Positions 4,938 through 63,400 of a stretch of DNA of 64,000 bases are shown piece by piece. Made by a program: the position numbers and the translations under genes. The DNA comes from Paramyrothecium sp. XJ0827 (Eukaryota; Ascomycota; Sordariomycetes; Hypocreales; Stachybotryaceae): the NCBI GenBank assembly GCA_020881915.1, contig JAJFPB010000010.1, positions 434,001 through 498,000 of the forward strand, read 5' to 3'. The notes beneath the pieces were generated by a model. The model was given only the letters and a program-made list of their open reading frames with translations. It made no database searches and was not told where the DNA came from. The number at the start of each line of letters is the position of its first letter. Position 1 is the first letter of the stretch.

Positions 4938-5029
4938 ATGAGATAAATTAAAGTTAAATTCCCTCTGCCAATCACTGAGATTTGATAATGGAGCGTTCCA
5001 AGTTCTCAGGTACTGTATCAGACACGCTC

Positions 5030-5253: not shown

Positions 5254-5309
5254 CTGAGAGCTGAGAGCAATTTTATCTCATCTTTCATTCAACACTCATC
5301 TCCAAGACC

Positions 5310-5609
5310 ATGGATCCCGGCATCAATGGGGAATTTGCAGCCAATACTGCCCGAACAGCAACCTCGTTCAATTTCATTCCGACAAGTGAAGACTACGATT
5401 CAAAGCCGATTGAAGAGCGACAAATTACAGATTTGTAGGCAGATCTTTACGCTGCACTGGATGCTATGGATGGAAGTCTCATCGATCTAACGGACACTCG
5501 AGAAGCGTTGTACAGAAGAGCAGCGCACACGCACGTCAGCTGCAAAAGACAAAGAATCCAACGAGCTGAACTTGAAGGTTCGGGTACAATGGGTACATCG
5601 GCGCTTTAA
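5310..5609 (+). pseudogene. Open frame interrupted by one in-frame TAG; unknown product
   Basis: An ATG at 5310 opens a frame of 42 codons that stops at TAG (5436-5438). The same frame then continues for 56 more sense codons to TAA at 5607-5609. The two halves have similar hydrophilic, helix-like composition, so this resembles the first exon of a decayed gene with a single nonsense change. A pyrimidine/A-rich leader (TTCAACACTCATCTCC) precedes the ATG. I recognise no family. A short spliced gene cannot be excluded, although no donor site is obvious before the TAG. Confidence 0.35.
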
Positions 5610-23262: not shown

Positions 23263-24348
23263 GAGTGGCCACGATCTATAACAATAAGGGTGCAACGCTA
23301 AACGTGTGCAAATTGTCTGCAGAGTGGCCTGAGATACTTTTCGGCGATGTAAAATAAAGAACTACCAGTTCTCGGCAAAGATGGTGGCCGATGTTTGTAC
23401 AGTAATAGAAAGGATTCGCTGAGAAGTCGAGTCTTCGTCTACGGGAATGCCCTGCGTAACCGTTACAATCTTATGGTTGATCCTTGTATGCCTTGTCTGA
23501 TTTCACAAGAAAAGTAATATCCAACTTGATTCTCTTGTTGGCCATCGCATAATGTTATATCGACCTTCCGGGTAGACGTTGGTTCGCGATATGGGCTGAT
23601 TTTCGCGGCGCTCCTTTTCAAGGACGAACCAACTGCATGAATGCCCAGATTTTGACCTACCAGAAGGTGCTGAACACGATTTGTCATACCAATCTACCAA
23701 CATGTTGCAGTCAATTTTCGGTGAAGCTGATCCTTGACATCGAGCGATGTTCGCGTTAGATCTTTCCTAAATACGAACCAACAGCATAAATACTGGACAC
23801 GTGGACACACCACATCGAATATAAACCAATGACTGCCTCTTAAGACAATATGATTCATCATCCCGGGCCGCCCTTGGTCACATTGTCACATCTTATGCAA
23901 ATGACACCACCTCGATGTATCCATCACGGGTTGCAATATTGGAAGCCTTGCATACCACGACTGAGTCCTGCGCCCTTGTACACAACTCCCCAGGTCATGA
24001 GCAATGTAGCTGTTGCCTTGACCCGAATCCTCTCTGGCTAGCAAGGCGCAAACTCAGTCATGTCAGCCGACCAACTTCTACCAGACCCGATTCTAGGTGA
24101 CATTAGAAGGTGGCAATTCCTTTTGCAGCCGTTCCGTAGTGACTGCAGCTCTCAGCAGTGTGCTTGCAGCTTCTGACTTTTGTATTTCTCTTGATTGACA
24201 TCCACAAGATAATCAATCCATGAACTAGGATCAAGAGGATTCGTGAGATTTCTTACAATCTATCGTCCGGCTTGACGCAGCCCCAGCCATCAGTTCAAGA
24301 TACGAGAATCCCGGATCCAGGGCAAAGGTTATCGAGGTACAGCTGCGC
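23263..24348. other. Intergenic: promoter of the NRPS-like gene and ACAD 3' region
   Basis: About 1.1 kb upstream of the NRPS-like start. Only unsupported short frames on both strands (for example 23463-23703 and 23850-24100). It presumably holds the promoter; no specific regulator site could be assigned by eye. Confidence 0.45.
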
Positions 24349-25689
24349 CTAATAACTACGAGGGAGTTCAAGAACCTTCTCGCTTATATAATTCAAGATC
24401 ATTTCACGGCTCACAGGGGCGATTCGAGGGACGAGACATTCTCTGAACCACCTTTCCACATCGTACTCGGCCGCGTATCCCATCCCACCATGCGTCAAAA
24501 CAGCCCTCTCGCATGCTGTAAAAGCAGCCTCGGCAGCCATATACTTGGCGCTGTTGCATGCCACTCCCACGGATGCTGGCGTGATCCCATTGGCGGAGCC
24601 CTCGTTGCCGTTGCTGCTCTCGTCGTAAAGTTTGGCGGCGTGGTATGTGGCCAACTTGGCGCCTTCCAGCTTCATGTAAGCTTCCGCCAATGGATGCGCG
24701 ATGGCCTGGTTCTGACCGATTGGACGTTGGAAGACGACTCGCTCTCGGGCATATTGGGCAGCTTTGTTAAGAGCTGCATAGCCGAGGCCGAGGGCCTCTC
24801 CGGCGAGGAGACAGCGTTCGGCATTCATGCCATGAAGTATAATCTTGAAGCCTTGCCCTTCTTGGCCAATCAGGCTATTTGCGGGGATGCTGTAGCCATC
24901 AAAGAAGACTTCGTTTGCATCAACAGCCCTTCCTCCTAGCTTCTTGATCTTGCGCATGTCCAAGCCCGGTTGGTCGCGGTTGAGATCGATACAGAAAAGT
25001 GACAACCCCTCGCTGGGCTTTTTCACCTGATCCAGCGGCGTCGTCCGCGCCAACAGAATCATCTTGGATGCGACCTGCGCACATGTGATCCAGATCTTTT
25101 GGCCGCTAACGCGGTATGAGCCGTCGGGCTGCTTGGTTGCTGTTGTGGATAATCGCAATGTATCAAGGCCACTGTTTGGCTCTGTGACGCCAAAGCAGAC
25201 ACGCCATTGGCCCGAAATGATGTTGGGAATTGTGCTTTCTAACTGTTCCTTGGTGCCGAATTTGGCCAAGGGTTGCGTGGCGTACACGTTTGCGTGAATC
25301 GCTTGGGCGCCTGCCATGCCGGCACCACTCTCAGCAATAGTCTGCATCATGATGGTTGCCTCTGATATGCCCAAGCCCGACCCTCCGAGGGCTTCGGGGA
25401 GAGCTATGCCGAGCCAGCCGTCCTGGGCAAGGGCAGCATGGAAATCTTTGGGGTCCTGTTCCGTTTGATCTCGCTCCTGCCAGTATGTGTTGGGGAAGCG
25501 AGAGCAGACCTGCTTGACGGCGTCACGGACCGTCAACTGTGTCTCGGAGAAGCAAGTGGTCTCCATTAGGCGTCTTGAAGTGGTAACCGAGAAAGAGCGG
25601 CTATTGTGCTTTCGTGGCAGGCTTCGCCATGCCAAGAGTTGTGCGAGGCTTTTCCGCTGGGGCAGCGCATTCACGATTGATCGCGACAT
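24349..25689 (-). CDS. Acyl-CoA dehydrogenase family protein, probably mitochondrial
   Basis: Intronless, 446 aa. The first ~40 residues are basic and Ser-rich (RSLPRKHNSRSFSV), a likely mitochondrial presequence. Then come the ACAD domains: an N-terminal helical part, the middle beta domain with the FAD-contact segment 'CFGVTEPNSGLDTL' and 'WITCAQVASKMILLAR', and a C-terminal helical domain with 'ERCLLAGEALGLGYAAL' and 'THGGMGYAAEYDVERWFRE'. The family oxidises acyl-CoA thioesters to 2-enoyl-CoA with electron transfer to ETF. At the site of the usual catalytic Glu motif (YEGTS) this protein reads 'IAPVSREM', so the base may be different, as in some branched-chain or AidB-like relatives. It lies 1.1 kb upstream of the NRPS-like gene on the same strand and could supply or modify its acyl substrate, or serve ordinary catabolism. 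Confidence 0.87.
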   Translation of the reverse strand: MSRSIVNALPQRKSLAQLLAWRSLPRKHNSRSFSVTTSRRLMETTCFSETQLTVRDAVKQVCSRFPNTYWQERDQTEQDPKDFHAALAQDGWLGIALPEALGGSGLGISEATIMMQTIAESGAGMAGAQAIHANVYATQPLAKFGTKEQLESTIPNIISGQWRVCFGVTEPNSGLDTLRLSTTATKQPDGSYRVSGQKIWITCAQVASKMILLARTTPLDQVKKPSEGLSLFCIDLNRDQPGLDMRKIKKLGGRAVDANEVFFDGYSIPANSLIGQEGQGFKIILHGMNAERCLLAGEALGLGYAALNKAAQYARERVVFQRPIGQNQAIAHPLAEAYMKLEGAKLATYHAAKLYDESSNGNEGSANGITPASVGVACNSAKYMAAEAAFTACERAVLTHGGMGYAAEYDVERWFRECLVPRIAPVSREMILNYISEKVLELPRSY

Positions 25690-26464
25690 CCTGATTTACT
25701 GAACTCTGGAGAAGGAGGGGAGGAGCAATGAGGAACAGCACGTAGGAGCATGTGGTATGTAGTATTCTATGATTGTGGCGACTTGACGATGACATATCTT
25801 GTTCTCCAGCCGGTCATGAGAGCGTTTAGCCGAGCTATGGCTTGTCCTAACCAGATGCGGTAATATCCGAGGACCCCCAGAGCGCGTGCTTCCGGCCGGT
25901 CGGAGCATGAGTCGTTGTCCGTGGCGGTGCTGACATGTAGCCCAACCATCTCCAAGAAACCCGTCTCGGTTATTGACAGTTTATTGTTCATATTTATTCT
26001 ACTTCTCGGCGTGCTATCATTCAATGGCCGACCGAGCGAATCCTCGGTATTAAATATCCCGGGAGGCAGCGCTAGACAGGCATGCCAATATTCTCGCGAT
26101 TGACAATATGTGGATATGATTGGCATTGCATGGTGCCTAACTGACCTTATTCATTGCTACCTGAAGGTGCCGAGTAAGCGGAAGTTACACGTTACCCGAT
26201 TTATTATAACTCCCAATTCCTCTGGCCTTGGAGACCACGAGGCGACGCTTAGGACTGAACGAACTTGCAATAAGCATTGTGTCTTCAGAGGTATAATTTC
26301 TGTCAGTCCCCCCGTTGAGAAAATTAGAAAGGCATCTGCACGTGGGCTTGCCTCTACCCACGATGGGGATAGCTGTGTAAGTGCATGTGTAGCTCTGCAA
26401 GCATGTGTAAGGTTCCTCTTCTTCCCTAGCTACTATGCCGTAGGGCTAATCCTAGGCTAACGTT
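25690..26464. other. Intergenic between ACAD and methyltransferase
   Basis: Contains the ACAD promoter and the 3' region of the methyltransferase. Short frames on both strands (25696-26126, 26110-26460) show no domain or signal. Confidence 0.45.
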
Positions 26465-27684
26465 TTACAGTCTCTCTAATTTTACAAACGCATAGGTAAA
26501 TCCTACTGCCTTCTCATAATAGGAACGAAGGTAATGCCGCTTGAACTCGGCGTTAAGATCTTGTAGAAGCTTCGCATCTTCGGAGGCCCAGTCGGCCGGA
26601 GGCTTCCTATCGCATGTCTTGTTCTTGCGTCGAGATTTGAAGTCATCCAAAACAAATCCAGAAAGAGCAGCCAAGGTGAAACCGGTAATGGCATCGCCAT
26701 ATTTTTCCTTTGCATTTTCAATTTCGTTCTCGTCCTGTCCGGAAGTGGTCTTTAACGATACTGCAGGGTGCTCCATTTGTATTTGGGTACTTTCCACCAC
26801 ACGCCACGTCCCTTTGGCTGCCGAGACGCTGAGGAAGATCTCCTCCATACTCCGCCAGTATACAGGGAGATTGGTGATGACGGCTGGATCTACAGGATAT
26901 GTAGCCGTAAGGGTACGGACCGTGTCCTCCAGACATTTAGTGACCCCCAATGTGTTGACGGGACCTTGAACTGGAATGCATAACATTAAGTAGCCACCAG
27001 GCCGTATCTCCTTGTGGCGTGCCGAGAGGAAAGCAACCAGATCGTCATGAGCGTATACCGATAGGAGTGACGGATCAGGCGAGGTAGGTACGATTTGTAG
27101 CCAGTGGAGAGCCGTGAAGCAAAAGCCTGCATCTACAGACTCATCCTTAACAATCTGATTGTAGAAGGACTTCGGAGCTAGTAAAGGGAAAATATCCAGT
27201 TTGCCGTCAAGTGATAGCCTGGAACGGCTGGCCTCAATCGTTGAGGATAAACTTGAGTAGTCATTGAAAGGGGTATCGTTGAAGACCAGGGTAGCAGAAG
27301 AGATGCCTGGTATTTGCGATAAATACTTCTCGAGGAGCTTGACACTGATCGAATGAAATTAGTCTAAATATTCTCCCTGGTATATTCAGGTTCAAAACCT
27401 ACGAGTTTTGTCCTTCTGAACAGCCATAATCTACAAGGGTGATTGTGTCGCCTAGTAGAGGGAGATGTTAGCATTTGGACGAGTTGACAGGTCCACTGCT
27501 TCTAGATGTGGCTTAAGGACGTGGGACTCATCATACCTGAAAAGGAAACAGGGGCGAACACATCAAATGACTTATCAATGGCCATTTGCTGTAGATTTGA
27601 GTTCTCGTTGTAGTATCCGCCTCCGTGCATCGTCATCTCATTGGCCTTCATTTTGGCCGCCTGGCCGGCAGAATTGACTGTCAT
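26465..27684 (-). CDS. SABATH-type SAM-dependent carboxyl methyltransferase
   Basis: Three exons (27537-27684, 27403-27451, 26465-27344) yield 358 aa. The N-terminus 'MHGGGYYNENSNLQ' matches the beginning of plant SABATH methyltransferases (MNGG...SYA.NS..Q). Next come 'TLVDYGCSEGQNS' (SAM-binding motif I, VDYGCSEG for the plant DLGCSSG), 'LVFNDTPFNDYSSL' (plant NDLP.NDFN), 'FCFTALHWLQ' (plant SSYSLHWLS) and 'IRPGGYLMLCIPVQG' (plant L..GG.MVL...G). Known members methylate small carboxylic acids such as salicylate, benzoate, jasmonate or gibberellins. The family is common in plants and scattered in fungi. It is divergent from the Zn2Cys6 gene (1.3 kb) and near an NRPS-like carboxylate-activating enzyme, so methyl-ester formation on a pathway acid is plausible. 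The start could be one of several close Met codons; the most upstream (27684) is used. Confidence 0.83.
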
Positions 27685-33594: not shown

Positions 33595-34265
33595 TCAAGA
33601 CTGGGCATTCCTACGACTCTCACTCCAGTGCGTATTGATTACATCCACGATTACTCCATGATCATCCTCTTGTGCAAGGCCCGATACCCCCACTACTGCC
33701 ACCACGCCCTCAACACCCTTGACCCGAATGGGCACGGCGCCACCGTGAATGGCGTACTCGGAGGATTGCTCAACGCTCATGCCGAAGAGGCTGCGGAACT
33801 TTTCCTCGTCGCCCTTAAAAGCACAGTTCATAAACCAGCTGCTTTTCCCCCAACGTAGGACGGTGTTGCGCTTGCGTCGGATCCAGTTCTCGTTGTCGAT
33901 GTTCGTAGAGCCCACGCAAGCTTGGAACAGAGTTTGTCCGCTGCTGGCGAGAACTACAGAGACGAGGGCAGGCTGCTTACTAGAGATGGGAAGCAAGCGG
34001 GCATACAGCAAGTGTCCCAGCTCCCAGGCGTCGTCGACAGTGAACGACTCAAGGGTGAATGAGTCGCAAGTCGCTGCTACTGCATCAGACTGTAAAAGGT
34101 TGGAAAGTTACGCGAATTGCAGGTATGGAAACATTGGATACGTACATCCATCGGCGGTCGAGGAATTGGCTTCGCCTCCGGGTTTGCCTGAACTGCAGCA
34201 ACTTGTTCCAAGCCATAGCCAGGCCCCCAGCCTCGGCGACGTAGCACTTTAGTTGTTGTCGTCAT
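33595..34265 (-). CDS. UPF0303 / heme-degrading-domain (HbpS/GlcG-like) protein
   Basis: Two exons (34146-34265 and 33595-34089) give 204 aa. Exon 2 holds the complete domain: 'FTVDDAWELGHLLYARLL', 'LVSVVLASSGQTLFQACVGST', 'DNENWIRRKRNTVLRWGKSS', 'AIHGGAVPIRVKGV' and 'VVAVVGVSGLAQEDDH'. This order is characteristic of UPF0303 proteins in the heme-degrading domain superfamily, which form small alpha/beta dimers. Biochemical function in fungi is not established; relatives bind heme or small cofactors. Exon 1 adds a 40-residue Arg/Pro-rich leader of uncertain role; the splice sites GT/AG and phase 0 fit well. Cytosolic, no signal peptide seen. Confidence 0.78.
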
Positions 34266-38150: not shown

Positions 38151-38369
38151 ATGAAGCTTTCTGTCGCCACCATTATTCTCTCCTCCATCGTCGCTGGGGT
38201 GTTTGCCAGCCCAGTCGCCAAAGAAATCGGCGATCTCACAGAGAGGGAGCTCCTAGAGCTCAGTGGAGGCGATGCGGAGAAGCGACAGCTGCCTCCCCTC
38301 TGCGGACGTTGCACCAATGGCTACCAGTCTTGCAACATAAACGGCTCTGTCTACCTTAGAAAATGCTAA
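38151..38369 (+). CDS. Secreted prepropeptide with Kex2 site, 72 aa
   Basis: Single exon with a TATA box 114-121 nt upstream and ATG after a CTCAAG context. The signal peptide (MKLSVATIILSSIVAGVFA) is followed by an acidic propeptide that ends in EKR at 43-45. Kex2 cleavage would release a 27-residue C-terminal peptide starting QLPPLCGRC with four cysteines and ending RKC. A Gln at the new N-terminus could cyclise. The pre-pro-KR-mature plan is that of fungal secreted peptides (pheromone-, effector- or RiPP-type precursors). Its position 1.1 kb from a UstYa gene makes it a possible second peptide substrate of that locus, although it has only one copy of the mature sequence. No family recognised. 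Confidence 0.72.
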   Translation: MKLSVATIILSSIVAGVFASPVAKEIGDLTERELLELSGGDAEKRQLPPLCGRCTNGYQSCNINGSVYLRKC

Positions 38370-39512: not shown

Positions 39513-40498
39513 CTATGGATTATCTGGTAAAGATACAGCATCAGGTGGTTGCTGCCACTCAAAGTCTTCCGGCATCTCAACTGCGCGATCCTTCAACCAG
39601 CTTTGCAAGTGATCCCAATTCACACATTTGTGAAACGTGTTGCCATCAGGTGTAGGTTGGTTGTGCTTTCGAACCCAGTAGTACGGAATGATGCCAGGGT
39701 CGAAATTGCACATGATCGCTTGTCGAAGGTAGTCGATGCAGTGCTCATAATGACGCTCATACATCTCTGGAACGCCTTCTTTGTTGGCCTTGGCTTCTTG
39801 AAAATAATCTATGTGATGGTCTTTCCAGATGTAGTGGAGGCAATGAATATGATGCGTGCCCATAGCTACGGCAATGTAGCCGCCGCCGGCTTCCGGTGGG
39901 AACTGAGCAGCCGTTACGTTGTGTCCGACGCGTTCAATATCCTCGGCCGTGACGCTTATCGTGCCGTCTGCGCTTTCATGTCAGCCCACTCCGATTTCTT
40001 CGTTCTTAGATGAGCTGCCATAACCTACAGTGCATCAAATCTTGCCACGCCTTTTCGACTTTCGGCGTGGGCGGGCCTTTATAAGGCGACTCATACCACA
40101 ATGAGCCCTTGAACCAATTATCGACGTATTCTTCTTTTATGCCTTCGTTGATCGGGGCTTCCATGCAAATGGTTAGCAAAGTTACGATCGATCTGCTTCT
40201 CAAACCTACAATAAGAGTTCATTTTTTCCACGCATCTCTGCTGCTGACCTGGCCATCGTAGTGCAATAAACGACAACAAGAGAGTGTTGAGCGCGAATAA
40301 AACACTGTTTACGATTGTTGGGCCATAGGTTCTCAAACGGCTCCTAGAAACATTCGGCTTCGGGGTTGCTGCGTCAAGGAGCTGGAATTTTTCCTCGTCA
40401 TCTACGTCTGTCGGACTTGAGGAAGACCCAGCTCCCCATTGAGGTTGAGTAGACTCAAACGCAGCACTCGCTTCATTTGAGCTCTTGGGAGGCTTCAT
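39513..40498 (-). CDS. UstYa-family (DUF3328) oxidase-like protein
   Basis: Three exons (40210-40498, 40029-40157, 39513-39967) give 290 aa. A Ser-rich cytosolic N-terminus and one transmembrane helix (about 61-80, 'TIVNSVLFALNTLLLSFIAL') are followed by the lumenal DUF3328 domain. It has 'YSPINEG', 'YKGPPTPKVEKAWQDLM', and the two diagnostic HxxHC motifs: His178-Ile-His181-Cys182 in THHIHCLHY and His212-His215-Cys216 in RHYEHCIDYLRQAIMC. These copper/metal-ligand-like motifs define the UstYa/UstYb group, which carries out oxidative macrocyclisation or modification of ribosomal peptides (ustiloxin, phomopsin, asperipin types). The gene is divergent from a multi-repeat secreted precursor (41803), the usual partner. 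C-terminus extends ~20 residues beyond the domain. Family assignment is firm; the reaction is inferred. Confidence 0.9.
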
Positions 40499-41802
40499 TT
40501 TCGAATGTCGTGCTGCGATGTTCCTTGCTCGTTCTCTTCAGCCACCTATTGTGAGCATCAGGCTACTGGCATAACCCAGACAACCGAGTGAGTCATTGAC
40601 GTAGAACGAACATGCGGATTTTGGAGACGACTAAACATGGCCACATCAGGCAGTTCGCCCTAGGTGCATCCAGGACGCCTCGCATGTGCCATTTTCTTAC
40701 TCTTTACAGTCGATGCCCCGAGGGGGTTTCCGCGGATCATGCATGCAACACTACCCCTCACAAGGATCGCTTCTTGATGGTTGGTTCACGGTGATCCGTT
40801 CCCAGCGACTCCCGGATTATTACTGGTAGTTCATGGCTGATCATTACTAAAGAATGTAAGGGGGTGTAGCCTGAAACTATTTGCATGCACATGCACCGTC
40901 GAACCTGCATTATCTTGGAAAGAAGCCTATCGAAGAGACTGGCTGGTTCGAACACCAAAGTTGCAATTGCTACCCAATACAATCCGCAACCGTATTAAGC
41001 TGCTCAATAGCTCCAAAAGAGTTGCTATCGGAGCCTACCGATTCCCGAAAGGGTAACAATAGCGGCTTGCAAGCATCCTTTAGTGAAGGCATCCCTAAAA
41101 GGCCATTCGGCATGTGACAAAGGCTCCAAGAATAGCCACCACCACGGTCCCATTCACAGCTTCGAGCTGCAGTGTGCCCATCAGCTGAATGACGGATATG
41201 GCGTGAGCTGTCACTCTTGATATGATCAAGGTTGATAGGATATATTAAGGGGAAAGATTGTCAGGCCACTCCAGAAGGTATGCACCCTGCCTGCAGGTCA
41301 CTTCAGAATCGGCCTTGCCTTCTTGCCGTCGTTGATAAACGCACGGTCGCGTGCTACCACAACGGCATTCTATCAGTGGTCTCGACTTGGGAGACTACGT
41401 GTGGATGATGGAAGGTGATATTCATGTGTAAAGGTGCATCTTGTGCCCCTCAATGCTACCCCATCCGGCAGATCAACTGCATCTCTCGACCTCACATCCG
41501 TAGATCCGCTCGCTAGAGGACGCTTGAGTTATGTCCACCACTGCGCTCTCCATCAGGTGAGCGGAACGGTCGTACTGCAAGTTCACGCAACCCAATGAAA
41601 CAGTAAAGTAAAAGAGCAGTTCACTGCATGTGTGACGCGATCTTCTTCGCAACTCCTCTGCAGGCTTAAATACCTCTGGACATACCGATCACACTCACCA
41701 AGCAGCACCGCTTGGCCTACCCTCGAGTTCTGACACCATAAACATCCTGTCACCCATCGTGAGATCAAAGTTGTCGAGCTTCTAGCCGACGTCACTACAA
41801 AA
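40499..41802. promoter_or_regulatory. Divergent promoter region, UstYa gene / repeat precursor
   Basis: 1.3-kb shared upstream region of two divergent genes whose products probably act together. TTAAATA near 41666 could act as TATA-like element for the precursor. Open frames within (40612-41117) have no features. Confidence 0.4.
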
Positions 41803-42448
41803 ATGCACTTTTCAACGCCTCTCGTCATCTTGGCTGCAAGCCTTGTTGTGGCTGCTCCGGTAGCTCAGCCCGGTAAGCCACTCCCGCTGACGCCCCTGTT
41901 TTGAATTATGCTTTGGGAACACGAGCAGTCTTGCTAATATATCTCCAGATGTCTTCTCTGGTGACCCCATCCTGGATATCAACTCGGACGAAGCCAAATC
42001 CTCTTACGAGGTGAAGAAGAGCCAAATCTTCAACGGAGACCCTATCCTTGACATCAACGTCAACGAGGACGAGTCCTCTTATGCCAAGCGCGAAGTCTTC
42101 GAGGGGGACCCGATCCTCGACATCAATGCTAACGACGAGAAATCATCGTATGACGTCAAGCGAGGCGAGGTCTTCAAGGGGGACCCAATCCTCGATATCA
42201 ATGTCAACGAAGACGATTCGTCTTATGCCAAGCGCGAGGTTTTCAAGGGGGACCCGATCCTCGATGTTAATGTCAACGAAGACGAGTCCTCTTATGCCAA
42301 GCGCGAGGTCTTCGAGGGGGACCCAATCCTCGACATCAATGCTAACGACGACAAGTCATCTTACGACGTCAAGCGAGGCGAACTTTTTGAGGGTGATGTT
42401 ATTCTGGACATCAACGCTGATGAGGGAAAATCTTCATATGACGCTTAA
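41803..42448 (+). CDS. Kex2-processed repeat precursor peptide (dikaritin-type RiPP candidate)
   Basis: Two exons (41803-41872 and 41949-42448), 189 aa. A signal peptide (MHFSTPLVILAASLVVAAPV) is followed by seven tandem units of 22-25 residues. Each unit has the form (E/D)(V/I/L)FxGDPILD(I/V)N, a short acidic stretch, then SSYAKR, SSYDVKRG or SSYEVKK. Dibasic KR (KK after unit 1) closes six units; the last ends SSYDA and a stop. Secretion signal plus repeated cores separated by Kex2 sites is the established plan of fungal dikaritin precursors (UstA, PhomA) and of KEP-type peptides. A UstYa-family gene lies divergently 1.3 kb away. Conserved aromatic residues available for cyclisation are the Phe of FxGDPILD and the Tyr of SSY; which one forms the core is not decidable here. 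Repeats of 75 and 69 nt alternate, showing recent duplication. Confidence 0.88.
41949..42445 (+). repeat. Seven coding tandem repeats of 69/75 nt
   Basis: Starts of the GG(T/A/G)GAC codons lie at 41960, 42035, 42104, 42179, 42248, 42317 and 42392, so the spacing runs 75-69-75-69-69-75. Two classes alternate: a 75-nt type with NANDxK ... DVKRG and a 69-nt type with NVNEDxSSYAKR. Nucleotide identity among copies 3-6 is very high, pointing to recent unequal exchange or conversion. The last copy has Val in place of Pro in the GDPIL motif. Confidence 0.9.
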
Positions 42449-43751: not shown

Positions 43752-45510
43752 TTAGGGTGGGGCCATGATGGTCTCTCCTCCATTTTCCTCCTTCATTCGC
43801 GCCAACTGTTGGCAGAACGGGCTGCGCTTCCTCAATGCTGGACCCCAGCGGATAAAGGCAAAGGGGATCGGCGTTAGTAAGAGGCACAGACACCCTAGCA
43901 AGGTGCACGCCCAATTCGTACCCAGATTTGCGTACAGGGGATGCGTCGTAAGCGGAATCAAAATGGCGGCCAGAACGTTCCGCGTGAAGACGCTAGATGC
44001 CAGAGCCGATGCACTGTAAATATCGTAGGCGTCGGTGAGATAGTTGTTGAGTGCCAGGAACGTGAGATCGATGCCAATGCCCAGAGGCACCCCAGAAAGC
44101 GCGGGAACTGCCCAGTGAACGTCCGGCCGGGCTGCCCATCCCAGCCAGAACTCAGAAAGTGCAAACAGGGGTCCGCCAAGACATGCCAGGGGCAGTCGCC
44201 GGTATTCCTCACGAAGCGCCCACGGCTTCTGCTGTTCGACGCTGCGCTTGTGGAACCTGTCCCATGCAACAAAAATGCCGATGGCAAGGACAGCCCCGAT
44301 GCCCGTGGGAATAAACATGAGGGCTGACACGCCGGCAGACATGTTGTACGTACCGCGGAATATGACAGGGTACGCGCCGAAGTAGAGGAAGAAGATGACG
44401 TATTGGTACAAGATGAACAGGTCAGTAAAGAAGACGAGTGGCTCGGAAAGAATACGGATGGGACGAGCCAGGGTCTTCAGGTGCTCCTTGACGCGGGACG
44501 CACGACTCTTAGGCGTACCGCTCCCATTGGCTTCCCCGGCGGTCGCATCGGCTTTTCTCAAAGCACGGGCCCTCAGGACGGGCGCAAACGTCTCAGGCAT
44601 CATGAGCAGCATGGGCCAGTTCACGCCGGCAAGGATCAGTGCACACCAGAACTGCCACTGCCAACCCCTTGTCGCCGTGAAGCCGGAGATAATTGGGCCG
44701 ACGAGCGGACCAACATTGCTCGTGAGGCCCAGCATCGTGACGGCCATGCCTCGAGGACGAAGATCGGGGTACAGGTCGCAGAAGAGGCCGCCTGACACGG
44801 TCTGGGGGGCCGCAGCGCCGCATCCCAGCATGAAGCGGAAGAAGAGGAACGTTGGCCAGTTGGGAGCAAACGCGCACCCAATAGTGAATGCGGTGTAGAT
44901 TCCGAAAGACACGAGGAACACGATACGTCGCCCTATGGACTCGGACAAGGGCGCAAAGATGATGGGCCCAAAGACTGCAAAACGGAGCGACGTGTTAGTT
45001 GCGATCTCAGTGGCGGTAACGGTTCCTAGATGGGTTATGCGCCGGGGTCTTTGACCGGTACGCATGCCACCACACAGGTTCAGATTGAGGGGTTCGGTTT
45101 GCTTACTGTAGCCAACAAGGAAAATCGCAACCGGAAGTGGCTTCTGCAGCTCTGATGTTACGCCAAAGTGCGCATTCAGCGTTGGTCCTGCGCCACTGGG
45201 CAGGGATGATCCCAGAGTGACATTGAAGTTCAGCAGAATGACTGTCGCACAGATAAAGATTTTCCGGGCCTGGAGGTTCACGCAGATCAGCCATCAGTCG
45301 GCGCCAGGGGCTGGTGTATGGGTCATTACCGGTGAAAGCTTCACCGGGGCTTCTTTCAAGTCCCTCGACGAAACAGAGTCTGTCACTGAGGACACAGTGA
45401 GGGTCCCTACACTGAAGCGTTAGGAGAATCGTGCCAGGGTAAATTAAAGCTTTGAGGGATCTTGGTGGCGTACCGTCAAAGGCTTTGGTGGATCTGATCT
45501 CGATACCCAT
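43752..45510 (-). CDS. MFS drug:H+ antiporter (DHA1-type) transporter
   Basis: Four exons (45474-45510, 45330-45406, 45107-45269, 43752-44974), 499 aa. The first two small exons give the hydrophilic N-terminus; the third intron (44975-45106, 132 nt) has no stop and stays in frame if unspliced. Removing it restores 'FLVGYIFGPIIFAPLSESIGRR', the family motif between helices 2 and 3. Other marks are 'FFRFMLGCGAAAPQTVSGG' with 'DLYPDLRPRGMAV', and 'LGLTSNVGPLVGPIISGF' (motif C, antiporter signature). Twelve membrane helices in two halves with a basic central loop (RASRVKEHLKTLARPIRIL). Such carriers export drugs, toxins or polyamines through the plasma membrane. Being next to the peptide locus it may export its product, but the distance (1.3 kb from the precursor) leaves this open. 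Confidence 0.87.
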
Positions 45511-45791: not shown

Positions 45792-47357
45792 TTACAGCGA
45801 AAGGACATGTGCTTGTCGGGATCCACTCTCGTTAAGCGTCTTGCGTCGTTCACGTAGCACCAGTAAGGCGTAGCAGATTGTCGCCAGAATGCCTACTACG
45901 GCGACTCCCATACAGGTCGAGTATCCCGGGACGTATGCAGGGCGGTAGCGCGGTAGGAACGCAAACGGAGCCAAGATGCCACCCGTGTTTCCGAAGCTAA
46001 TCATCCAGCCGGACCCGATGCTACGCTGCTTGTGGCCCTCGAGGTTCATGAGGTACCAACAGACGACAATGGACCCTGCGCCGAAGGCACCCATGCAGAC
46101 CAGGCAGATTCCGGCATACTGGGCGGAGAAGTTGCCGCGCGTGGTCATCAGGATGGAAAGGCCGATTATGAGGACGACGGCGGAGAAGAGCACGTACGGC
46201 ATGCGTGTGTTGGTGCGGCTGGACAGGTAGGCCAACACGACGCAGAGACCGAATGCAGCGGCGAAGGGTGGCACGGAGTGCAACTGCGTCTGGACGACGG
46301 AGTAACCCAGCGTCTTGACGATGGTTGGGGTGAAGTAAGCAAAGGAGTAGACTGGAACGACGACGGCTGCGCGTTGTTGGTCAGCACGGACACGGGATGC
46401 AACGGGAGGAGACCACCTTACAGAAGTAAATCAGAGCACCAAGGTAGTTCATAGGCTCCTTGAAGAACTCGCCGAGGTCTCGCATGGTGATGGGACCCTC
46501 CTGCTTCTCAGTCTCCACAGCGCGAGTGCGCCTGAGCACAAACTCCTTTTCTTCCTCGGTGAGCCACGAGGCCTCGCTGGGGAAGTCGCAGGTCCAAAAG
46601 TACGCCATGACTGCTACGACAATGGTAAAGATGCCCTCCAGGATGAAGATCCACCTCCAATTGCTGAGGCCTCGGACTCCGTCCATGTTTGCGATGCCCG
46701 TTGCAAGCAGGCCGCCGAAGGCCGAGGCAAAGATGACGGAGCAGAAGTAGAACGTGAAGCGCTGCTGGGCCTCCTCCCTCTTGTACCAGAAGCTGATGAG
46801 GTAGAAACTCCCCGGGAAAATGCCGGCCTCGAAGAGACCGAGGAAGAAGCGTGTTGCAACCAGGCCACTGAAGTTCTGGACGAAGCCCTGCGCCAGCATC
46901 ACCACGCCGAAGGCGAAGATGCACATTGACAGCCACACATGGGGGCTGAGCTTCTTCAACAGGATGTTTGAGGGGATCTCAAAGAGGATGTAAGGGACGA
47001 AGAAGACGGCCAACGCAGTGTTTGGCTGCTGGCCAGTCAAGCCGAGGTCCTCGGGCATGCTCATGGTGAGGGCATTCGAGACGTTGGCACTGCACGAGGC
47101 TAGGTTAGAAAACGAGCTCTGCGTGGCCTGGGCCGCAAGACATACCGGTCAAGGAATGCCACAACGTAAATTAGGAAGAGCATCGGCAGCAGACGAAAGT
47201 CGATGCGTCGCACCAGCTTCGCCTCTTCCTCCGCGGACATGGTGGGCGCGTCCGGGAGGGTCGAGATGCTCTCGACGACATCGTTTGCTGCGCATGCAAG
47301 TCAGCGAAAAGTGAGGCCACAACGGACGACGAGCCGTGCCGTACCTGCATAGCCCAT
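45792..47357 (-). CDS. MFS transporter, anion:cation symporter (nicotinate/allantoate-like)
   Basis: Four exons (47345-47357, 47146-47287, 46422-47089, 45792-46366) give 465 aa. Exon 1 is 13 nt: it codes MGYA plus one base. Splicing yields 'RIDFRLLPMLFLIYVVAFLDRANVSNALTM', the classic helix-1 motif of the ACS family, then 'ALAVFFVPYILFEIPSNILL', 'TRFFLGLFEAGIFPGSFYLISFWY' and, in the second half, 'GSGWMISFGNTGGILAPFAF'. Relatives import nicotinate, allantoate, tartrate or related small acids. The gene is in the same orientation as the DHA1 gene with only 281 nt between them. High GC and long antisense open frames are a codon-use effect. Substrate not predictable. Confidence 0.87.
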
Positions 47358-48848
47358 TGCGATTCAGCCTTGCGGTGCCTGGGACGGATCTTGGGTGGTG
47401 GTTGAAACAGAGGGTTGCGTAGAATGGAAGGTTGATTGTGCTTGGATGGTTGAGTGGCAGCGTAACCTGCAGAAGAGAAGTAATGGATGAAACACCGGAG
47501 CGTCGAGGGAACAGGCGTGAGGGAGGGGACCAACAACCGTCTTTTACGATGGTTGTGCCTTCAAATACCTTGACGTTTTCCGGCGCGATGGCTCGAGGAG
47601 ACAGTCGGAAAAGGAGTTCAGCTGGAGGAACTTGGACACACCACGGTGAGGCTTGTTTCACGCCATCAATATTACATGCATGTAAGGACTCGAACGCGCA
47701 CTCGAGCCGGGACTAACGTGCGTTCATGAATCCAAATAACTGCAGCCGCTGAGGATGCTCTGGCGTGCCTCCTCTGATCCCCGGCAGCATGTCACAGCGT
47801 AGGAGTGGACCCTTCTCAGCAACAAGAATAAACTCCAGCCAAAAACGTGGCTGGCCACGCCGGGATGTTCCATGGGGCCAATTTCCTTCGAGAAGGGCGC
47901 ACAGTCCACGTGCTGATCGACACACCATCTGGACGGCCCAGACGGTCGTGTCGCCCGCAAGCCTCAACGGGAAGGTGGTGGTCGGTGTTGTGAACTGGAC
48001 TCAACTTTGAGCATAATGGTCGGTTCATTCATCTCCCGTGTCCAAGGGGGGGGAGGGGAGGTTGTCGAGATGGATGGGACAGCGTGCCATCGGCCAGGAT
48101 TCAATGCGGTGCTCATGGCAATCTAGACCAACCCTGCACACAGCAGACCGGCTGTTGATAATGGTTGTCCAATGGGAGGGGAATCCGTCCCCTCCTCGTG
48201 GGTGGCTGCAGCGGGCATCGAGTATGTGGTCGTGTCCCTCACTTCCTTTCCTGGCCAGAGTGTGGCGGCCAATGCAACGCACCTCTTGCTGGAGCTGAGC
48301 TTTGCTTCCAACAGGAATGCGACGCTCCAGAAGGCAGAACGGTCGGCCGAGTGTCTGGTTGCATGGGGAGGACGAGGGGGTTGAAGGCCGCGAATGCCGC
48401 TCATGGGCAAAAGACCCCGACCATTTCGTGCGCTGCGTGCACGGCATCCCTTCCCCCGACCTGAGACGGCCTGCCTGAAAGATCTGAAGCTGGCACAGCA
48501 CAGATGTAAGGCGTGGCAGATGCAGGTTCAACTGCCTATCTGTTGATTTATTGCTTGACTTGCTGACTGACTGTACCATGCGAAACGGGACCCTTCTACC
48601 CCAGCATTCAGCTATGGCCATGTCCGTCAGCCCGCGATTAAAGTGCTGATTCGGCGTTTTCTTTTTATCTGGCTTGGATCCAGAACAAGCAGCGTGGAGA
48701 ATTGACTCGTACGACCCACTGGATCTGCAATCTCTCACTTGTTAGTTAGACAGTTCCAGACAGGCAAGACAGGCAAGACAGGCAAGACAGACAAGACAGA
48801 CAAGACAGCCACGCTGGTGTCGTTGTCGTCGTCTCTCGACCTGTCGCC
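47358..48848. other. Divergent intergenic region, ACS transporter / PTH11-like gene
   Basis: 1.5 kb of GC-rich DNA with long but featureless open frames on both strands (for example minus-strand 48025-48738, 237 codons). No domain, signal peptide or plausible exon pattern was found, so it is treated as non-coding promoter DNA. A 9-bp repeat lies just upstream of 48849. Confidence 0.4.
48759..48808. repeat. 9-bp tandem repeat in the leader of the receptor gene
   Basis: Five units of GACAGGCAA/GACAGACAA plus a partial sixth, ending 40 nt before the ATG at 48849, so probably within the 5' leader or core promoter. Confidence 0.75.
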
Positions 48849-50094
48849 ATGGCGCCGCAAGGGCTCTCGCCGAGTCCTGCGACCAACACCTTCACGCCGG
48901 CGCTGAACCCACCGCCGGGCGTGACGTCCAACCCGGACAACCCGGAGAGCCTGGCGCCCATCGCGAGCATCACCATCGCCGTGTGCATCCCGCTGGTGAC
49001 GCTCTTCTTCGCGCTCCGGTGCTACGTGCGGCTGTTCGTCAAGCGCACGTGGATCTTCGAGGACTACCTCGTGACGCTCGGCTGGGCCGGCGCCGTGTCC
49101 TACTGCGCCATCATGAGGGCCACCATGTCGCACCACGGCGGCAAGCACGGCTGGGACATCACCAAGGAGCAGGCGCACCAGGCGGCCTTCTGGTTCAACG
49201 TCGCGGCCATCCACTACGGCGTCATGATTGCCGTCGCCAAGCTGGCGGTGCTGTGGCTGTACCGGCGCGTCTTCTCGCCGCGGCGGCACAGCGTCTTCGA
49301 CATCGCCATCATCACCCTGATCGTCATGACCATCGGCTTCTACGGCATCACGACCTTTGTCAAGATCTTCGAGTGCAACCCGCGCGACAAGATCTGGAAC
49401 AAGGCCCTGCCGGGCAAGTGCATCCAGATGAAGTGGGTGCTCAACATCAGCGGCGGCTTCAACACGGTGACGGACTACATCATCATGCTGCTGCCCGTGC
49501 ACGCGGTGTGGAAGCTGCAGATTGACAGGATGAGGAAGAGTCTTGTGATTCTGGCCTTTACGTTTGGGCTTTGGTACGTTGCCTCTACACTATTCTTTTC
49601 TCTCTCTCTCTCTCTCTCTCTCTTTTCCGATGCTAACCTGCCACAGCGCTCCCATATTCGCCACCATCGGCTTCGTCGTGCGCATCCAGAACAGCGGCAA
49701 CCCGGACAAGACGTGGAAGCAGCCCGAGATCCTGCTCTGGGGCGCGGCCGAGCTGGCCTCGGGCAACCTGTGCGTGTGCTTCCCCGAGCTCGCGGTGCTG
49801 TTCCGGAAGCACTTCCGCAAGAACAACACGGGCCCGCGGCGCCCGACGGCCTCGGAGATTGCCTCCAACGCCAAGGTCTGGGACTCGAAGCAGGCCAAGA
49901 ACGGCCAGTACCCGTACCTGCCCAAGAGCCTGATGAGCACCACGTTCAGCGTCAACGGGGACAGCCGGTACATCGAGCTCCAGGACCAGGGCAACAACAT
50001 TCACGTGACGTCGATTGGGACGTTTCCGCAGGAGGGAAAGATGGAGAGCGGTGTTGTTATAATGAAGAATGAGGTGCGGGTGGAGCGACAGTAG
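48849..50094 (+). CDS. PTH11/rhodopsin-like seven-helix integral membrane protein
   Basis: Two exons (48849-49573, 49647-50094), 390 aa. An extracellular N-terminus of ~40 residues is followed by seven hydrophobic segments. Family marks: 'LRCYVRLFVKRTWIFEDYLVTLGW' (R.Y.R and .DY motifs at the first loop), 'CNPRDKIWNKALPGKCI' (extracellular Cys pair), 'NISGGFNTVTDYIIMLLPVHAVWKLQID' and 'APIFATIGFVVRIQ'. The C-terminal tail of about 120 residues is hydrophilic. This architecture is the fungal rhodopsin-domain family that includes PTH11, a putative surface receptor for plant or surface cues; most members have no known ligand. No CFEM domain is present. The intron holds a (CT)n microsatellite at 49600-49622. 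It neighbours an ACS transporter and a TPP enzyme, without an obvious common pathway. Confidence 0.85.
49600..49622. repeat. (CT)n microsatellite in intron
   Basis: Uninterrupted CT dinucleotide run inside the single intron of the receptor gene, forming an extended polypyrimidine tract ahead of the CTAAC branch site and CACAG acceptor. Confidence 0.9.
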
Positions 50095-53956: not shown

Positions 53957-56456
53957 TCACTGCGCATAATATCTGTCCGCCTCTGAGTAGTCCTGGGACG
54001 TTTGCGTGTCGATGCTCGAACCCCTCCTACGTACCCAAGGCATCTGCCTGACGTTCGCCGCCAGGTTCTCCCGATCATGGCTCGAGATACTCGTCCCGAA
54101 AAGCCCCAGAGCCGCAATCACGTAGGTGACGCTCGACACGCCTGTTAGCACAGCCCAGAACATCCTCCGGGTCGCTGCTTCTGGGGATAAGTCAAAAATG
54201 TCGACACCGAAAAGTGTCTAGTTGAAGCGTTAGAGTCATATCATAGGGGGGACGGGGAGGCTGCTGCTTACAGCAACAAACGTGGGCGGCAGGAAGAAGA
54301 TTGTGACAATCGTGAAGACGAGGAGATACTTGCTCAAGATCCGAGTCTTCTGCGCCTCGACCACTGACTGCGCACTGAAAAGCTGTCACAAGATGTCAGC
54401 TATTTTCCCACAACCGACAAGAATCACCTACTCCATCTCGCAAGCTCTTGACCTCGTTGATGGTCCGCTCCAGCCTCGTCAGCAGCTTGTCCGACGCCTC
54501 CTTCTGCCTCCTCTTGACGATGGCCCAGTTGTGCTCGAGGACCCTCTGCGTGTCCTTGGTGTGCGGGTACGTCTCCTCGAACCAGTAGTCCTTGGACGTG
54601 GGCTTGCGCACGTTCTGCGAGAGGGCCTCGAGGTTGCGCAGCGCCGTTCGGATCGAGTCGGCGAAGAGCCGCAGGATCTGGAGCACCTGAAAGTACAAGA
54701 CGGACTTGTCGGCCTTGGAGTCCAGGATGATGGTTTTGAGGCGTCGCACGTCTCGCAACGTGTGAAGCTTGGGACGTTAGCGTTCGAGGTTAGCGTTCGA
54801 GGAGCATTGAAGTCATCCTGGCCACCTACCTTGACGGACACCATGGCATCCATGTGATCGATCGTGTCATTCCAATCGGCTTCCCACGATTCTATGAAGG
54901 CACAGATCTGGAGCTGGAAGACGGCCATCCCTGTATGAATGCCGGCGGGGAACAAACCATATCTCTTCCACGGGCTGGTGCGGTTAGTAACGGGGTCGTA
55001 GTACCCAGGCGATCCCCGCCACAGGTTGCGGCCCTGGTCTTTCGTTCGCTGGTCGGTGTCGATGAGCGACAGCAGGATGTAGTGGCCCAGAGGCCGGAGG
55101 ATCGGAAGCATGCTGAGCGTGGTAGAGTACCGTCTCTCGGCTAGCTTGAGCGTGCCCTGGCCGTAGAAGCCCTGGAACGAGATCCACTCCCGGCTGCATC
55201 GCAAACCAGGCGGCGCCTGCGCTTCCCAGTGGGCGTGCTCTAGGAACTCGTCGACCACGGAGAAGGACCGCATGTAGTGCATGAAGACGCCGTACCTGTG
55301 GGACCCCGGGTTCAGTGGGTTCGACGTGGCCTCGCACGTCGCGCTCTGGAATATCCTGGTGCGGCACGTCGCATGCACCGGCTTGTCGCTCCACTCGCTA
55401 AGGTGGGCGTGAAGGAACTGCGGGCCTCCGTACGGCCAGTATCGTGGTCCTTGGCCGAGGCAGAGGATCGTCGCAATGGTGTCATGGTCCAGGATTCCGT
55501 GTTTGCGGTCAATCGATATACGACTGGATGTCTTGTCTCAACTTCGATCCGGGAGATGGAGCGATGTACTCACCCGACGACGCCACAGACGGTGCTCTCT
55601 TCTAGTCGGTCCTCGGCCAGATCCTTTATTCCCCCAATGTCAGCGCCTACAGCCTTCTCAGTCGGATCTGGAGCGTGCCTACCTCCATCGCCTCCACTGC
55701 ATCAAAGATTTGCGTCCTATAGTCGAGAAGATCATCAAAGGTGCCCCGTACCGTGGAGTAGTTGATCTCGCGTTCATTGCCGAGCAACCCGCCGTAGCGG
55801 TTGTGCGTCCACGACTTGGGCCAGCTGTCTGCATTTGCGTACAGGCTCTCTTTCCTTTGCTTCGGTGCGCAGAAGAATTTGTCGTCCCAGGGCAGGGAGT
55901 ACAGCTCCGGCATCGTGACCCATTCTTTGAAGATGTCGTATGCCGTTTCCAGATTCGGTTTCGCGAACCACTGGACCTCGGACGATGTGGCTTTGTTCTT
56001 CCATGAGAAGTTGACGCTCGATACGAGCTCTTTCTTGCCGGACAGCTGGGCCAGAGAGGTGCCCCATGGCAGAAGGCTATTCAGAAACTCCCTCCCCAGC
56101 GATCTGTCCAGGTGAGCCGTCGAAGCTGCCTCTGACAGGACCCAAGCATCGTCTGGCTTTGACCATAATCTCTCTGCAATAAGGGCTATGTCCTCGTCTG
56201 TATCGAAGTTAAGATTCTTGGCTACTAGTTCAAAGAACCTCCGTTGCTCAGCGCTTAACCGTTCGAAGACCTCGTGGAAGGGGGTCTCTCCGCTCCACGA
56301 TTCATGCAGTGAAGGAGGCGCTATCAGCTTTCGCTGACTCGTTGCCGTAGAGGCGGTTTCGTTCCTGTCGCCGTCTACCGTGTTGACTCTCGTGATGGTA
56401 CCTGCATCGTCCTCTTGCAGCAAGGCGTCCATTGTGCAATAATGGCAGCCATTCAT
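53957..56456 (-). CDS. CorA-like membrane protein with large N-terminal domain
   Basis: Six exons (55683-56456, 55574-55623, 54830-55523, 54432-54767, 54272-54382, 53957-54217), 741 aa; Met at 56432 is an alternative start. The long soluble part begins with a helical region ('PFHEVFERLSAEQRRFFELVAKN'), is Trp-rich in the middle ('LGQGPRYWPYGGPQFLHAHL') and has a predicted coiled region before the membrane. Two C-terminal helices follow: 'YLLVFTIVTIFFLPPTFVA' and 'FWAVLTGVSSVTYVIAALGLF'. The helix pair and the 'TIVTIFFLPPTFVATLFG' segment match CorA-type channels, in which a GMN motif closes the first helix; here it reads GVD. Such fungal CorA-like proteins are numerous and not proven Mg2+ channels. 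A role in ion transport or membrane signalling is therefore only suggested. High GC makes long antisense frames. Confidence 0.75.
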
Positions 56457-60446: not shown

Positions 60447-63400
60447 CTAAGTAGATACAGAAATCCTAGATATGATCTTCTCACAGATAGATAGTAGCGA
60501 GGTGGCATTTACCACCTCAAGAGTAGTCAACTCCACTGCCAGCTCGACCCTGATAAAGTTGCGGAACTCCACAGCGGCCAGGGAATCAATGCCATACGTT
60601 GATAATGGCCGGTTATAATCAATTGCTTCTGTCAGCCTCAAGCTGCGGACGAGGTACGTGTTCATCATCTCGACAGTCAAGTCCAGAACAGCCCGATGTT
60701 CAGCCTTGGAGCGGATCATGACAAGAATGGCTTGTACGTCCTTTGTAGTGGACTTGCCGGACCCGGACGCATTCTGTCCACCATCCTCGCCCCATATCCT
60801 CAGCCCACGAAATCGTGCATCGCGTAGCAGTAGCGAATCTGAGGGCTGCGGTAGCTGGATACCAGTAATCATGTGGGCTGCGCTTTTGGCATTGATGGGA
60901 TTCTTCTGCTGTTGCATGATGGAGAGCCCAAGAATCTTGCGCAAGAGCCGTTCGTTTATAGGCTGCCACACATTGTAGTCATAGCGTTCTTTCATCTCGG
61001 TCCGCTCCGCCATGTAACCCACATCTTCGATGACGCCGAGGTCGACGGAGCAGGCCGGCAGCCCGAGTTGCCGTCTGTAAACAGCAAACGCATCGAGAAA
61101 AGCATTTCCAGCGGCGTAATTAGCTTGGCCTTTGCTTCCGTACAATCCGGAAATACTGGAGAGCATGGTAAAGAAGTCAAGCGCGAGCCCTTGTTCTGAT
61201 GCGGCATTATGAAGATTCCAGGTTCCCTGGACCTTGCAAGCCAGGGCCGTGTGGTATTCATCCAACGTCATCGATCCGTAAATTCGATCCTGTTTCGCGT
61301 TAATCTTGAATGCCTTTACGACTTTGTGAGCAACTTACTCGAAGAACCATTGCGCCTTGCACAACGCCTCCAATTGGTACCGCTGTACTGTTGAACGCTC
61401 TTCTTACGTCTTCCATAACGGTGACATCCCCGGTAAGCAGATCTATTTCGCAACCCAGGGCCCGAATATCTTTGGCCGCCTTTTGAGAAGCTTCATCGGA
61501 GTGTCCACTACGAGAGAGCACGGCCAAATGTTTGGCGCCGTTCTTGGCCATGTGTATTGCCAGACTAGAGCACAGGCCTTTCAAGCCACCTACAATGAAG
61601 TAACACACATCAGGTCGAAGGCGCAGAGCCCGTGGTAACCGACGGACTGGGACGCTTATCTTGGCCTCGTCGGAATAACTGATGACCAGCTTGCCAATGT
61701 GCTTGCCGCTCCGGAGTAACCGGAAAGCCGCTGGTATGTCAGTGAAAGAGAAGATGTGTCTGGGCGAGATTGGTGTTAGATGGCCTTGGGCCATTAACTG
61801 AAATATGTCCGAGAGTAGGCTGTTCCAAAATCAGTAAGCGTTGCAACTCGTCACCAACCCAATGGTGAAAGATGGAAGAGACGGAACGAGTATACCTTGC
61901 AATCATCTCATCACTGATCTGTTTGTGAGAGAGGTCCAGAGCACGGAATGACGCATTGCGATTGAAAGGCTCCATGGACAGGGTATTCCTATCCAGGATG
62001 TCCCGTTTGCCAATCTCAACCATGACACCGCCCGCGGCAACAATACGCCACGACTCGTCGAGCAACTCGCCTGTCAGGGAGTTCAGGATAACGTTAACAC
62101 CCTCGCCGTTTGTTAGCTTGAGGATCTGCGCGCCGAATGCCGTCGAGCGGGAGGAAAAGATTCGATCGTCAGGGATGCCAAAATTTGACTTGAGAAAATC
62201 ACGCTTCTCTTGTGTTCCCACGGTGGCAAAAACCTAGCGAGTCTGGGTTAACAAAGCGGCTCTGGGGTTTGGCAGGCCACGGCTTGTTTAACTTACCTCG
62301 GCCCCTACATGTTGGGACAACTGGATAGCGGAGATACCTACACCGCCGGTGGCCGAGTGGATGAGAACACGGTCTCCCTTCTTGATGTGTGCCAAGTGAT
62401 ACAGCGAGTACATCGAGGTCATGAAGACACAAGGAATCGTGGCCGCTTCCTCGAAAGTCATGGTATCAGGGATCGCATGCACTGCCTCTGTCTTGGTCAC
62501 GATGCGGTTTCCGAAAGACCCCTTCTCGAAGAACGCAACGCGTTGGCCTGGCCGGAAAGCCGTAACGTCACTGGCAACACGCCGGATGATTCCGCTGCCC
62601 TCGCCCCCCAGGAGAAGTTCATTCTCCGGAATGATGCCGACTGTGACTGCAACCTCTTTGAAGTTGACGCCAGATGCATAAACTTCAATCTCGACGTAAT
62701 TCTGTTCCAGGACACCCTCGGAAGTCTCGTGTTCCTGGCTGACCTCATTGTAATGCAAAGCATCAATGTTGCCAATGCGCTCAGCATGTAGCCGGAAACT
62801 CGAGCTGGAACCTCGGAAATCCATCATCTCAACGGGTCTACCAGATACAGTCACCTCTTCCTTGGCCTGGTTGACTTGCTTGTCGCTGAGAATCCGGCTA
62901 ATCTTGATAACTCCGCCACGTTCTATGAATTCGTCATCCTGCGTGCTGACCGCCGTGGCTCGTTCATCGTCGAGCATCTTGAGGCATGCCTCAATCGCCC
63001 GGACGGTTGCCACTCCTGACGGATGTTCCACATCCAGGTTGATCAGGCGAAGAAGTGGCTCTTCGTTTCGGATCACTCTGAAAAGGCCTGTTATGGCCGC
63101 CTTGTCAGGGCTCGTCACTGTTCCTTGGGCCCCACTCGTAACCCATAGGATTTTGCATTGCTTCTCAATGAGGCCGTGCAGCAGTTCCCATTGAGGTTCC
63201 TTGAATGTGGTTGCGACTGGGGCGATGAGCTCATCCAATACCAAGACACGACTTCCATGACTAACCGTGGATACGTCGGAGGCATTGCTGAAGGAGTGAG
63301 ATGTCAGCTCAGAAAGGATCGAATTTTGTTCTGACTTATTTCCGTCAAAGTGGACCACAACAACATCATTCTTGTACAACACACCGTGAGGTTGTATCAC

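Follow-up and report, generated by a model that had tools for sequence, protein, structure and literature searches.

A seven-unit KEP precursor and a divergent UstYa gene in Paramyrothecium sp. XJ0827 as a candidate dikaritin-type locus

Described KEP and UstYa systems and the layout of the locus

By 2022, the number of reported dikaritins had reached only five (available text of PMC10512285), compared to 1758 KEPs with a DUF3328 gene nearby (PMC7329392), and each small intact pair of such genes is therefore a usable test case. The latter were found among 7878 KEPs known by 2020, whose repeats were very diverse and from which Umemura excluded proteins with any separated sequence of >100 aa or with all repeats of <8 aa (PMC7329392, the available text of which is also the source of the figures that follow). 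No DUF3328 gene was present within 15 genes of 6120 of the 7878 KEPs, the counts of DUF3328 genes peaked next to KEP genes, and Tyr in the repeated sequences was recorded for 65.6% with DUF3328 nearby versus 38.2% without. Typical repeat lengths are 13 aa for ustiloxin, 14 aa for phomopsin and 8 aa for asperipin. An older definition of dikaritin clusters comprises a precursor, a tyrosinase, a methyltransferase, multiple DUF3328 proteins and a transporter or peptidase, while a newer one treats a DUF3328/UstYa protein with two HxxHC motifs as class-defining (available text of PMC12048977). DUF3328 is not exclusive to RiPPs according to the same source and, therefore, a KEP/UstYa pair points to a dikaritin without defining one; the statement in the initial annotation that this combination defines RiPP pathways was too strong.

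The window, meaning the whole stretch of 64,000 nucleotides that was analysed (contig JAJFPB010000010.1, positions 434,001 to 498,000), contained the following features.

41803..41872, + strand: precursor exon 1, with the start codon and a signal-peptide-like sequence, MHFSTPLVILAASLVVAAPVAQP (signal peptide judged by eye)
41873..41948, + strand: precursor intron of 76 bases, read from the sequence, with a GTAAGC donor, a CTAAT branch-like site and a CAG acceptor; the splice joins the frames
41949..42448, + strand: precursor exon 2, with seven units FxGD[P/V]ILD[I/V]N ... SSY, the stop codon and six dibasic sites, the first being KK and the other five KR
40499..41802: intergenic region, a candidate bidirectional promoter on geometry only
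39513..40498, - strand: UstYa/DUF3328 gene (PF11807) of 290 aa, with exons 40498-40210, 40157-40029 and 39967-39513
43752..45293, - strand: MFS transporter ORF 1.3 kb beyond the precursor (PF07690, E 7.7e-32), a possible exporter of uncertain cluster membership
45792-47148: second MFS transporter ORF, within about 10 kb of the precursor/UstYa pair
48750-50069: fungal rhodopsin-domain protein ORF, within about 10 kb of the pair
33598-34107: HbpS-like protein ORF, within about 10 kb of the pair
26468-27358: carboxyl methyltransferase ORF, 12 kb from the pair
19910-22399: NRPS-like reductase; the surrounding stretch 18535-27358 also contains P450, acyl-CoA dehydrogenase and carboxyl methyltransferase ORFs
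60450-64000: parts of a reducing PKS, reaching the window end

The UstYa and precursor genes were divergent, with 1305 bases between their starts, as the initial annotation had described. On sequence grounds, the pair appears to represent the KEP plus UstYa arrangement of a well-known class, and what is new is a repeat that was unmatched in the searches made. The initial proposal of a new system thus went too far, since KEP-DUF3328 pairs were an already described class by 2020 and, by our reading, about nine were present in the same genome. Two dikaritin features were found, namely, a UstYa protein with two HxxHC motifs, as in the newer definition, and, 1.3 kb away, a precursor with a leader and repeated core motifs. 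The older five-gene set was incomplete, with one UstYa match on the contig, the MFS ORFs and no tyrosinase in the ORFs scanned, but the newer definition has no such requirement. No peptidase or isoflavone-reductase-like gene was recognised either among the nearby ORFs scanned, which were single ORFs rather than gene models.

By analogy, the precursor/UstYa locus most likely works like the small asperipin locus. It shares with the asperipin-2a cluster (aprA, aprY, aprT and aprR; available text of PMC6514808) a small size, a single UstYa gene and an MFS transporter ORF close by, but differs in having no recognised counterpart of the isoflavone-reductase-like gene and in its repeats, the asperipin core being FYYTGY and its repeats typically 8 aa long (PMC7329392) and the fragments predicted here being 21 to 23 aa. 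A repeat precursor, a Tyr near KR with an acidic stretch ahead of it and a UstYa protein are common to this locus and the ustiloxin and phomopsin systems, from which it differs by a single UstYa, longer fragments, no tyrosinase recognised nearby and the absence of the EDYxI core that marks the ustiloxin/phomopsin type (available text of PMC6339444); no YxI was present anywhere in the 189 aa of the precursor. In common with the KEPs that have a DUF3328 gene (PMC7329392 and PMC6339444), the precursor has a signal-peptide-like start, tandem repeats, dibasic separators and an adjoining DUF3328 gene. A search of main texts did not detect its motif, although it may be among the KEPs that these two papers list, e.g., the 2560 stand-alone ones.

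A further secreted-looking protein of 72 aa was encoded at 38151-38369 on the + strand, with a KR site followed by a 27-residue tail containing four cysteines (QLPPLCGRCTNGYQSCNINGSVYLRKC). At E 0.1 it had no Pfam match, and the next best match in the genome (E 0.11) was unconvincing as a paralogue.

The precursor repeats and the constraint on them

The precursor gene (41803-42448, + strand) was read as two exons, and the spliced reading of 189 aa had no internal stop. A hydrophobic stretch followed by VVAAPVA was seen by eye at the N terminus and may be a signal peptide. All of the seven tandem units named in the initial annotation were found, and they aligned without gaps over 19 residues, from [V/I/L]F to SSY, with the pattern [V/I/L]F-x-GD[P/V]ILD[I/V]N-(5 residues)-SSY. 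The residues F, G, D, I, L, D, N, S, S and Y were identical in 7/7 units, while P and the second I were present in six of the seven, being replaced by V in unit 7 and unit 5, respectively. The claim that FxGDPILDIN is conserved and that SSY precedes KR or KK therefore stood for SSY (all seven units) and for the dibasic end of six units (one KK and five KR); it did not stand for the motif in units 5 and 7 or for the end of unit 7, which reads SSYDA-stop. An acidic stretch preceded SSY, the residue directly before SSY was Lys in four of the seven units, and the residues after the Tyr varied (A, DV, EV or DA), with 1 to 2 residues between Tyr and the dibasic site in units 1 to 6. After removal of basic residues, the predicted Kex2 fragments were 21 to 23 aa long, except for a first fragment of 26 aa whose start was cut by judgement; an example of a predicted Kex2/Kex1 fragment is EVFEGDPILDINANDEKSSYDV, with a computed M of 2468.1231. 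Seven fragments of 21 to 26 aa with six dibasic separators agree with the repeat rules for KEPs.

Comparison of the units (21 unit pairs) detected a dS of 2.85 and a dN of 0.154. For the GDPILDIN block, pS was 0.77 and pN was 0.046; for SSY, pS was 0.78 and pN was 0, with synonymous changes at all three codons; and for the five-residue spacer, pS was 0.75 and pN was 0.28. The excess of dS over dN and the invariance of SSY indicated that the precursor is a real gene under purifying selection. Furthermore, the near-random synonymous positions, in the face of retention of both motifs, indicated that the units are old. A detector of dibasic repeat chains flagged the precursor ORF, and only 1 of 4307 ORFs was flagged once each ORF had been shuffled (37 records, overlapping loci included). 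That the precursor is a chance low-complexity repeat or a pseudogene would fit with the lack of a protein relative in the database, but this reading is exceedingly improbable given a frame kept through 189 aa, a canonical intron and the substitution pattern described above. Eight Pfam rows on the precursor (best E, 0.0009) were all under their cut-offs and were read as noise.

Searches for relatives of the precursor were performed against 5.8 billion proteins. The full precursor yielded 1924 candidates, none at E 0.01, and residues 22-189 yielded 7232 candidates in the same collection, none at E 10; in its own genome, the sole matches at E up to 10 were its own two exons. The core is unlike YAIG, YVIPID or FYYTGY, as the initial annotation had stated. 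The scoring step was controlled with phmmer at the same database size by using randomly mutated copies of the precursor, five per level. With 50% of positions replaced, none of the five copies scored worse than E 2.2e-25; the corresponding limits were E 4.8e-26 with the motif alone kept and E 8.8e-8 with 60% replaced, while at 70% three of five were below 0.01, one was at 0.45 and one was unlisted. This control covers the scoring step only, and the search prefilter relied on shared exact 5-residue words in annotated proteins of 0.55 to 1.75 times the query length. The precursor may have relatives that are unannotated, may have changed too fast or may be paired locally with its UstYa gene. Of six motif strings, five did not occur in the main texts of 5.39 million papers, and the sixth occurred once in each of two food papers.

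The UstYa gene and other UstYa loci of the genome

The UstYa gene model was the first of the top-scoring two-intron readings, two of which were tied on score, and its reading across both introns agreed with an annotated relative from Clonostachys solani that was 67% identical. The protein matched PF11807 at E 2.3e-50 with 171.9 bits (cut-off, 25), in agreement with the initial assignment. It has one N-terminal hydrophobic stretch and two HxxHC motifs, HHIHC (178-182) and HYEHC (212-216). Protein searches detected 75 matches, 74 of which were 46 to 77% identical over 37 to 98% of the query and the 75th of which was 26% identical. By our own classification of the species names, which many matches lacked, the relatives included lichen fungi and members of Hypocreales, Xylariales and Dothideomycetes, among others. 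When the window protein was aligned with the first 60 of the 75 relatives, H178, H181, C182, H212, H215 and C216 were invariant in 61/61 sequences, and 57 columns were conserved at at least 95%, indicating a strongly conserved subfamily; the same six positions were conserved at at least 90% in a 40-row alignment that included the most distant relative. Other UstYa matches of the same genome scored far lower against the subfamily profile (best, 1.2e-27 versus 3.2e-129, in a comparison of single ORFs with a spliced protein). As would be expected of a gene from a fungus, a search of viral and prokaryote contigs confirmed no relatives of the UstYa locus. The locus tags of five UstYa relatives did not occur in the literature searched. 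These 75 UstYa matches contrast with the lack of any precursor relative in the searches made.

The cyclochlorotine hydroxylase CctR was utilized as the comparison for the enzyme (available text of PMC12435403). In CctR, an O2-dependent membrane-associated dimer, the HxxHC pair holds a binuclear copper site, and mutants of the motif residues lost activity; AprY of the asperipin pathway is cited there as copper and dioxygen dependent. The window UstYa shares with CctR a putative N-terminal membrane helix, the HxxHC(x)nHxxHC arrangement and a helical domain, but the substrate of CctR is a non-ribosomal peptide. An AlphaFold2 model of the Clonostachys solani relative (40 sequences) had a mean pLDDT of 79.5 and a pTM of 0.66 for the best of five models, the other four being at 66.9 to 72.4. 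The HxxHC motifs fell within two helices of this model (171-186 and 202-222), where the blocks had a pLDDT of 93 to 96, and this predicted placement is in line with the CctR layout. Among solved structures, the sequence search gave only weak matches for UstYa (best E, 0.25; 0.13), and the fold search gave none at E 0.001.

The genome (51.8 Mb; 15 contigs) had 28 PF11807 matches, which were grouped by position into 15 UstYa loci. Outside the window, DNA was read as two overlapping stretches covering 17.7 to 19.4 kb at 12 of 14 loci and as one 9.9-kb stretch at 2 of 14, with flanks of about 2 to 10 kb beyond the outermost UstYa matches. KEP-like genes were detected at 7 of the 15 loci, including the window, at the first detector threshold, and two more at a looser threshold brought this to 9/15 by our own reading. 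The first-threshold list had 17 rows, some naming one gene more than once where loci overlapped; shadows of the same repeats, in antisense or in other frames, were removed by eye, as were the low-complexity ORFs C9:1976543, C9:1981990, C12:2202047, C8:5786281 and window 54482-55537. The eight further KEP-like genes had differing repeats (DADAAEKYKLY, ARHHQGAK, VAYGRHTDDVP, STNNQAGWG, DEEVKVADGF, DEMEIEVSEAF, ADGAFFVINW and DSDEAVVYPAQVDQSWVDATKR), and in six of them, but not in the other two, the last aromatic residue was 0 to 6 residues from the dibasic site in nearly all units. All nine genes were <2.0 kb from a UstYa match. Compared to random placement in the same stretches, the nearness was weak (Fisher p 0.050 with the window and 0.128 without it). 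Nine KEP-like genes in roughly 0.3 Mb is far above the average of 5.25 KEPs per Ascomycota strain (Umemura; available text of PMC7329392), a comparison that is indicative only as the detectors differ. Overall, the genome looks rich in dikaritin-type loci.

The KEP motif on contig C5, DADAAEKYKLYVD, is reminiscent of Le Marquer's motif 3 (DADAATXYV[A/V]D; available text of PMC6339444). At another UstYa locus, a KEP-like gene (C8:5795811-5796427; positions 5012-5628 of locus L034) had the unit DSDEAVVYPAxVDQxWVDATKR, and each unit was seemingly its own exon. Five tandem copies of exon plus short intron were spaced at 122 to 128 bases, with introns that begin with GTAAGT- or GTGAAT-type sequences and end in TAG or CAG, so that alternative splicing could alter the core number.

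A candidate pathway and its alternatives

We consider it probable that this is a small dikaritin-type RiPP locus, in which Kex2 fragments of the precursor are oxidised by the neighbouring UstYa and the product is secreted. This reading follows from repeats that are under purifying selection at both motifs with dibasic sites between units, from an intact UstYa with two HxxHC motifs that adjoins the precursor divergently at 1.3 kb, from the KEP-like genes at 9 of 15 UstYa loci and from the resemblance of one UstYa plus a transporter to the four-gene asperipin cluster (PMC6514808). Counted against it were the 74 UstYa relatives at 46 to 77% with no precursor relative found, the weak nearness test, the lack of a recognised tyrosinase, peptidase or isoflavone-reductase-like gene nearby, the FxGDPILDIN block having no Tyr and the Tyr being at the far end, and fragments longer than the repeats typical of ustiloxin, phomopsin and asperipin (PMC7329392). 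We infer Kex2 cutting, action of UstYa on the precursor peptide, the location and copper content of the enzyme and its chemistry. The precursor would enter the secretory pathway, where Kex2 would cut after the KK/KR pairs and Kex1 would then probably trim the basic residues, releasing peptides of about 21 to 23 residues, each with FxGDPILDIN and SSY. UstYa, which by analogy with CctR would be a lumen-facing, membrane-anchored copper enzyme, may then oxidise these peptides by cross-linking, desaturation or hydroxylation, the conserved Tyr or its vicinity being the likeliest site. The product would be secreted, perhaps via the MFS transporter.

Within the same class, the product may come from either conserved part of the unit. 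FxGDPILDIN, which was initially named as the core, is strongly constrained; however, the ustiloxin order of ED, core and KR (available text of PMC6514808) means that this block may instead be a recognition segment, with the core nearer the SSY end. A short C-terminal core around SSY (SSYA, SSYDV or SSYEV), with FxGDPILDIN guiding UstYa and later removed, is a possibility of some weight though not the expected outcome. The acidic stretch before SSY resembles UstA, in which each core has ED upstream and KR downstream; furthermore, SSY is free of amino acid changes across seven units, its Tyr is separated from the dibasic site by one or two residues in units 1 to 6, and a similar position of the last aromatic was seen in six of the eight other KEP-like genes. 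Conversely, Lys and not an acidic residue directly precedes SSY in four of the seven units, the residues that follow Tyr vary, and the conservation of GDPILDIN almost matches that of SSY, a strictness that a recognition segment would not need. A link between the two motifs would likewise be consistent with the constraint seen on each, and we regard as rather doubtful a large cyclic peptide in which UstYa joins the Tyr of SSY to a residue of FxGDPILDIN some 8 to 17 residues away, or in which the block is desaturated, in a subfamily whose precursors change too fast for recognition between genera. Such a ring would be far larger than those from the 4- to 6-residue cores of ustiloxin, phomopsin and asperipin. 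With a single UstYa and seven well-conserved units, two-gene expression could reveal the role of the subfamily and the site of the core, FxGDPILDIN or SSY.

Other readings separate the two genes. Plain linear peptides, secreted as signals, effectors or surface components, with the UstYa acting elsewhere or adjoining by coincidence, are an unlikely outcome. Linear KEPs are common, as seen from the 6120 KEPs without DUF3328 nearby (PMC7329392), a widespread UstYa subfamily beside a precursor with no relative found would suggest another conserved job for the enzyme, and the nearness test was weak; however, the direct divergent adjacency, the recurrence in this genome of UstYa loci with KEP-like genes and the fixation of F and Y in every unit argue against such an outcome. 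A role for the UstYa in a neighbouring polyketide or NRPS-like pathway, tailoring a non-ribosomal product as CctR does for cyclochlorotine, is very unlikely. DUF3328 enzymes do act in NRP and polyketide pathways (available text of PMC12048977 and PMC12435403), three of the listed UstYa relatives, including those of Clonostachys solani and Stachybotrys elegans, carry automatic UniRef labels as cyclochlorotine biosynthesis proteins, and the window holds both the NRPS-like reductase and the reducing PKS parts. Both clusters, however, were about 17 to 20 kb off with other genes between, and the direct neighbour of the UstYa gene was the KEP gene.
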